Source: Bellilinea sp.
Lineage (GTDB): Bacteria > Chloroflexota > Anaerolineae > Anaerolineales > Anaerolineaceae
Reading direction: 5' to 3'
Length of the DNA: 64,000 nucleotides
Assembly: GCA_026003615.1 (NCBI GenBank)
Contig: BPHQ01000001.1
Coordinates: forward strand, 1-64,000
Positions 27,990 through 28,137 of the stretch are shown in pieces (position 1 is the first letter of the stretch; the number at the start of each line of letters is the position of its first letter). Position numbers and translations under genes: made by a program. Below the pieces are notes generated by a model. The model was not told the origin of the DNA and ran no database searches. It saw nothing but the letters and a program-made list of their open reading frames with translations.

Positions 27990-28103
27990 AAAAAAAAAAG
28001 AGCCAGCCTGCTGGCTGGCTCCACTCGATTTCTGTTTTTCAACCGGTAAGGTTACCGCTAATAATCAATCGCCGGGGTGAGGGGGGCACCCAGGCGATTG
28101 ACA
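27990..28103 (-). ncRNA. candidate small RNA with C6-loop hairpin and intrinsic terminator
   Basis: Minus strand, about 110 nt. The predicted start near 28103 lies 7 nt after the TATAAT. The first hairpin (28100-28066) has 8 + 5 bp with one mismatch and loop CCCCCCT closed by GTG/CAC. A small CGGTA/TACCG hairpin follows, then an A-rich single strand, and finally a perfect 9-bp terminator stem (28021-28000) with T10. The C-rich loop resembles those with which sRNAs such as RsaE/RoxS bind G-rich Shine-Dalgarno sequences. It could also be processed from the 3' UTR of the photolyase operon. Confidence 0.6.
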
Positions 28104-28109
28104 ATGTTT

Positions 28110-28137
28110 ATTATATACAATTGGATTGGATTGGCAA
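28110..28137 (-). promoter_or_regulatory. promoter of the candidate small RNA
   Basis: TTGCCA (28137-28132), 16-bp spacer, TATAAT (28115-28110) on the minus strand. It is the same type as the two tRNA promoters in this window and lies in the gap after the photolyase-like gene. Confidence 0.65.

Follow-up and report, generated by a model that had tools for sequence, protein, structure and literature searches.

A family of predicted C6-loop small RNAs in the order Anaerolineales, with copies on viral contigs

The stretch of Bellilinea sp. DNA analysed here (64,000 nucleotides; hereafter the window) contains, at positions 27990-28137, an intergenic locus that an initial annotation read as a compact small-RNA gene, whose C-rich loop would act on G-rich ribosome sites in the manner of RsaE/RoxS-type RNAs and whose position suggested a link to light or oxidative stress. 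The locus raises three questions: whether it is a small-RNA gene at all, to which family such an RNA would belong, and what it would do.

Layout of the locus and its predicted transcript

All of the elements of a small-RNA gene were found at 27990-28137, on the minus strand; the initial annotation had given no strand. The promoter named in the initial annotation consists of a -35 box TTGCCA (28132-28137) and, after 16 nt, a -10 box TATAAT (28110-28115), and matches 11 of 12 consensus positions; promoter-like sites as such showed no excess here over shuffled sequence. Seven nucleotides downstream of the -10 box begins a 5'-terminal hairpin (28102-28064), the family-defining element. Its loop is CCCCCCU, as annotated; in place of the 13-bp stem given initially, it has 15 bp, formed by 10 pairs, a mismatch and 5 pairs. 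The fixed core UG-CCCCCCU-CA spans 28078-28088, with the loop, the proposed pairing site for AGGGGGG, at 28086-28080. The stem is followed by TATTA (28059-28063), the local form of a TTTAA motif, then by a variable linker (28024-28058) with a small second hairpin (GCGGTAACCTTACCGGTTG) and the A-rich stretch GAAAAACAGAAATC, and finally by an intrinsic terminator of a 10-pair stem and T10 (27990-28022), the expected 3' end of an RNA of ~110 nt; the A-rich single strand and the T10 terminator had likewise been recognized from the start. Neither the second hairpin nor the terminator has a C-rich loop; the predicted RNA displays a single C6 loop.

The predicted RNA folds at -50.8 kcal/mol, compared to -30.2 +/- 3.5 in shuffles (z = -5.95), and the core TGCCCCCCTCA occurs once within the window, against 0.07 expected occurrences. 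That the locus goes beyond chance follows from its conservation across an order. A photolyase-related gene (PF04244) lies on the same strand, 78 nt upstream of the small-RNA gene, and a plsY-like gene (PF02660) is convergent, 101 nt past the hairpin.

Conservation, spread and viral copies

When the locus was compared by BLAST to 60 relatives, many short matches were obtained in various genomes and contexts, the best of which covered the -10 box and the hairpin. A model built from the 39-nt hairpin alone, without promoter or flanks, on 16 training sequences matched 55 of 61 related genomes, from nearly all sampled families of Anaerolineales; in a sample of 301 genomes of the phylum, credible model matches were confined to that order. 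Four matches outside Anaerolineales lacked the C6 loop on inspection and were rejected as copies. Scanning a single genome from each species yielded at least 120 stretches, and the matches listed were assigned to Anaerolineales, a lower taxon of it, Anaerolineae or Chloroflexi, with the exception of one short contig binned as Herpetosiphon. The hairpin is recognizable from sequence alone in the cultured strains Leptolinea tardivitalis and Anaerolinea thermolimosa. Genomes carry from 1 to ~8 copies, some in tandem; in the strongest copies the model matches the palindromic hairpin on either strand, and these counts were therefore corrected by eye. Judged from these matches, the family is a mostly multi-copy one of the order Anaerolineales. 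Nine stretches hold tandem hairpin genes, two or three copies with a promoter each. Separately, a copy occupies the same site in five genomes of the genus, close to a gene for an ABC transporter ATPase (judged by eye to be ECF-type); this site constitutes a second orthologous location of the C6-hairpin family.

The stem covaries strongly. Two-sided changes were present at 7 of 15 pairs in the 16 training sequences, and the observed values were reached by none of 500 shuffles; among 191 distinct hairpins, 97.8% of cells were paired (76% in shuffles and 37-44% when slid), and two-sided changed cells numbered 661, versus 179 in shuffles. The initial annotation had staked its reading on compensatory stem changes in relatives, and such changes were found. 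Across hairpins only the loop and the last two pairs are fixed, giving the core UG-CCCCCCU-CA; part of this loop fixity is built in, since the loop was a search requirement in the large scans. Among copies obtained from the model or BLAST, for which the filter allowed up to three core substitutions, nearly all nonetheless retain CCCCCCU.

In 84 of 87 copies from the model or BLAST, the C-loop strand has a -10 box (4 or more of 6 positions) at a distance of 5-8 nt ahead of the stem, as opposed to 3 with one on the G-loop strand, and the TTG-type -35 box is conserved among copies. Given this fixed distance, the stem should start at or next to the 5' end of the transcript. TTTAA or a close variant stands within a few nucleotides after the stem in most copies. 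Terminators were detected within 200 nt downstream of 30% of copies (0.4% of shuffles); in the ~70% for which the scan detected none, the 3' end is uncertain. With a stable stem, an exposed C-rich loop and its own promoter, the RNA is predicted to belong to the class of C-rich-loop sRNAs, and the conserved promoter and hairpin, together with the terminators of about 30% of copies, strongly support the original reading of a compact sRNA gene.

Known RNA families gave no match. The family is absent from Rfam 15, where the locus had no match; at E values up to 10, three weak matches at the locus lay far below gathering scores, and the covariance model of 6C RNA (RF01066) gave no match over the locus. 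A literature search for this RNA in Chloroflexi returned nothing. Together these data indicate that the locus is almost certainly one copy of a new, well-supported RNA family.

The pattern was also matched on 33 viral contigs of IMG/VR, of which three (L273, L287 and L288) could be host DNA. Among the viral contigs studied closely, many have the copy a short way past the gene for the large terminase subunit and ahead of lysis or head genes; a second promoter frequently comes next, with a -35 box that starts 11-16 nt past the stem. In 17 of the 33 viral copies, GAAC-N4-GTTC (with at most one mismatch) is positioned 24-25 nt before the stem, between the -35 and -10 boxes; among 198 chromosomal copies this LexA-type box had three matches, none at -25/-24, and it occurred in 0.8% of shuffles. 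Because the same box lies upstream of several lexA genes of Anaerolineales, control of the box-bearing viral copies by LexA is likely, and for about half of the viral copies the promoter sequence points to DNA damage, instead of light or oxidative stress.

Two further observations were made on viral contigs. On seven of these, and on others, a second structured RNA follows ~50-200 nt after the hairpin, of the form GCAGTCCTGG..CCGGGAC..TGATGC(C)GCCCGA, with a strong terminator before the lysis or head genes. The second promoter, in some cases with a LexA-type box near its start, drives this RNA, which is absent from Rfam and recalls a late-promoter leader. Four phage contigs hold an additional divergent copy of the hairpin, CTTGCCCCCCTCAAG, which has a promoter to itself.

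Candidate targets and alternative readings

Hfq was detected in 0 of 41 genomes, and in all five control genomes, and ProQ was searched for and not found in these genomes. Neither G6 nor AGGGGGG was enriched before start codons genome-wide, nor did its frequency track copy number. A broad regulon of G6 ribosome sites is thus unsupported; either there are few targets or the RNA works in another way. Most places examined in which a G-run precedes ATG were inside genes or had no long ORF, and were set aside. In the genome of the window itself, approximately two credible G6 starts were present, one at an FtsI-like penicillin-binding protein gene (PF00905, PF03717; start region GAGGGGGGC) and the other at a gene for a CopD-like membrane protein, named by eye. 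All 7 genomes of the genus that were examined have a run of G5-G6 at the FtsI-like start, as do 3 of 22 other genera, compared to 1% of starts; excluding the discovery genus, P is about 0.001. The loop is predicted to form a duplex with this site at -24.2 kcal/mol, whereas a common ribosome site of the AGGAGG type gives -6.1. On eight viral contigs, G7-G9 precedes the start of the small terminase gene, with a length that varies between related phages. These targets were chosen after the G-runs had been seen, and the phages behind the eight terminase sites are related to one another; the FtsI-like gene and the phage terS are accordingly candidates, no more. The pairing of a C-rich loop with G-rich ribosome sites, as originally put forward, is hence plausible for specific candidates and has no counterpart in genome-wide enrichment of G-runs.

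We consider it most likely, by analogy with 6C/B11 and sX13, that the C6-loop RNA represses a few mRNAs that have a G-run at the ribosome site. The locus would encode a trans-acting small RNA of ~110 nt, whose transcription would begin on the first base of the stable hairpin displaying CCCCCCU, or on a base adjoining it; the loop, needing neither Hfq nor ProQ, would then pair with AGGGGGG at the ribosome sites of a few mRNAs and block their translation. The FtsI-like gene would be a candidate target in the Bellilinea genus, and the phage's own small terminase gene a candidate target of the viral copies, approximately half of which are proposed to be switched on by DNA damage because of the LexA-type box in their promoter. 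For this mode of action as a whole, we estimate a probability of about 0.5. An extension, in which one C6-loop hairpin serves both host and phages as an order-wide RNA regulon, LexA cleavage turns on the phage copies, and their induction stops FtsI-like division wall synthesis and times packaging through terS, seems to us unlikely.

The same absence of a genome-wide trace of G-rich targets would suit a protein decoy, in which the loop and its two closing pairs bind an RNA-binding protein that is titrated by the multi-copy RNA, and which phages would use to remove that protein. CsrB-type RNAs titrate CsrA in this way. The invariance of the loop and closing pairs while the rest of the stem varies, and the presence of several copies in most genomes, fit such a decoy; we nevertheless regard it as somewhat unlikely, in that there is no candidate protein, a known class of sRNAs with such loops works by pairing, and G-runs do occur at two candidate starts.

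A hairpin at the start of a transcript could also act in cis, as a 5' leader or stabiliser that controls or protects the transcript behind it. Of 87 copies, 39 have the nearest downstream ORF on the same strand and 48 have it on the opposite one, in the latter case sometimes within a few nucleotides of the hairpin, and downstream genes were diverse, with none in common. As neighbours differ and there is no downstream strand bias, the hairpin RNA is by its genomic context a stand-alone gene, and not a leader as a rule; the leader of a downstream gene was rejected on these grounds. In the window, moreover, the transcript would stop at the T10 terminator ahead of the convergent gene. A role in cis is decidedly unlikely despite the many copies for which no terminator was detected, the position of many viral copies just upstream of the second promoter, and one copy with a ribosome site and ATG directly behind it. 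That copy (L013), in which AGGAGG and ATG immediately follow the hairpin, resembles use as a 5' leader.

The diversity of neighbours bears on two other proposals. Since the genes around other copies differ, those flanking the window copy are uninformative with regard to light, and the light or photolyase link, with the oxidative stress inferred from the same position, was abandoned. A recently mobile repeat is unlikely, because copies vary greatly in both promoter spacer and stem.

The C6 loop might instead kiss the G-rich loop of a second small or stable RNA and antagonize it, as nearly complementary motifs are known for Yfr1 and Yfr2 (PMC6778093). This would explain a loop that is fixed independently of any genome-wide target; with no partner RNA found in a search that covered rRNA and other stable RNAs unsystematically, we judge it quite improbable. 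That the hairpin instead acts as DNA (as a cruciform, a protein site or a repeat), with no RNA made, would fit a near-palindromic, multi-copy and intergenic sequence. We consider this very improbable, given that the promoter keeps a constant position and is confined to one strand, that the stem has G-U pairs and compensatory changes, and that terminators follow downstream.

Relation to known C-rich-loop RNAs

To our knowledge, no order-wide regulatory sRNA has been described in Chloroflexota, and our search for one found none; the family, if it acts by repression through pairing as favoured above, would be the first known to us, within genomes in which Hfq and ProQ were not found, and a further case in the apparently repeated evolution of C-rich-loop sRNAs. 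Because viral contigs also carry copies, of which about half have a damage-type promoter, the question of a shared host-phage RNA can be tested.

RsaE/RoxS of Firmicutes carry a C-rich pairing motif aimed at ribosome sites. Their layout differs from that of the new family, and the RsaE/RoxS model of Rfam gave no match at E values up to 10, so that the assignment to this type was dropped. The Yfr2 family of cyanobacteria is a lineage-wide, multi-copy sRNA family at unconserved loci, with a fixed motif in the loop (PMC6778093); the new family shares the multiple copies, the unconserved loci, the spread through a lineage and the fixed loop motif, whereas the motif itself is different and no relation was detected by Rfam search. 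RepG of Helicobacter pylori is an sRNA whose target is a length-variable G-repeat within the leader of an mRNA (PMC8295292), and the G-run of the phage small terminase is also variable, at 7-9 G; RepG is a single-target system of another phylum, and its sequence was compared through Rfam only. sX13 of Xanthomonas has C-rich loops, represses mRNAs with G-rich motifs near the start and is Hfq-independent (PMC3771888). It is a different RNA with three C-rich loops, whereas the new family has a single loop, in genomes where Hfq was not found.

6C/B11 of Actinobacteria (RF01066) likewise displays C-rich loops on stable stems, and B11 (6C RNA) represses mRNAs with G-rich ribosome sites, for example a six-G tract (PMC10470900). 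It has two such loops, in contrast to the one C6 hairpin at the 5' end described here; the new family further differs in having several copies per genome, in its phylum, in its presence on viral contigs and in the lack of an Rfam match. In C. glutamicum, 6C has been connected with SOS and perhaps with cell division (as cited in PMC6582537), which offers a suggestive parallel.
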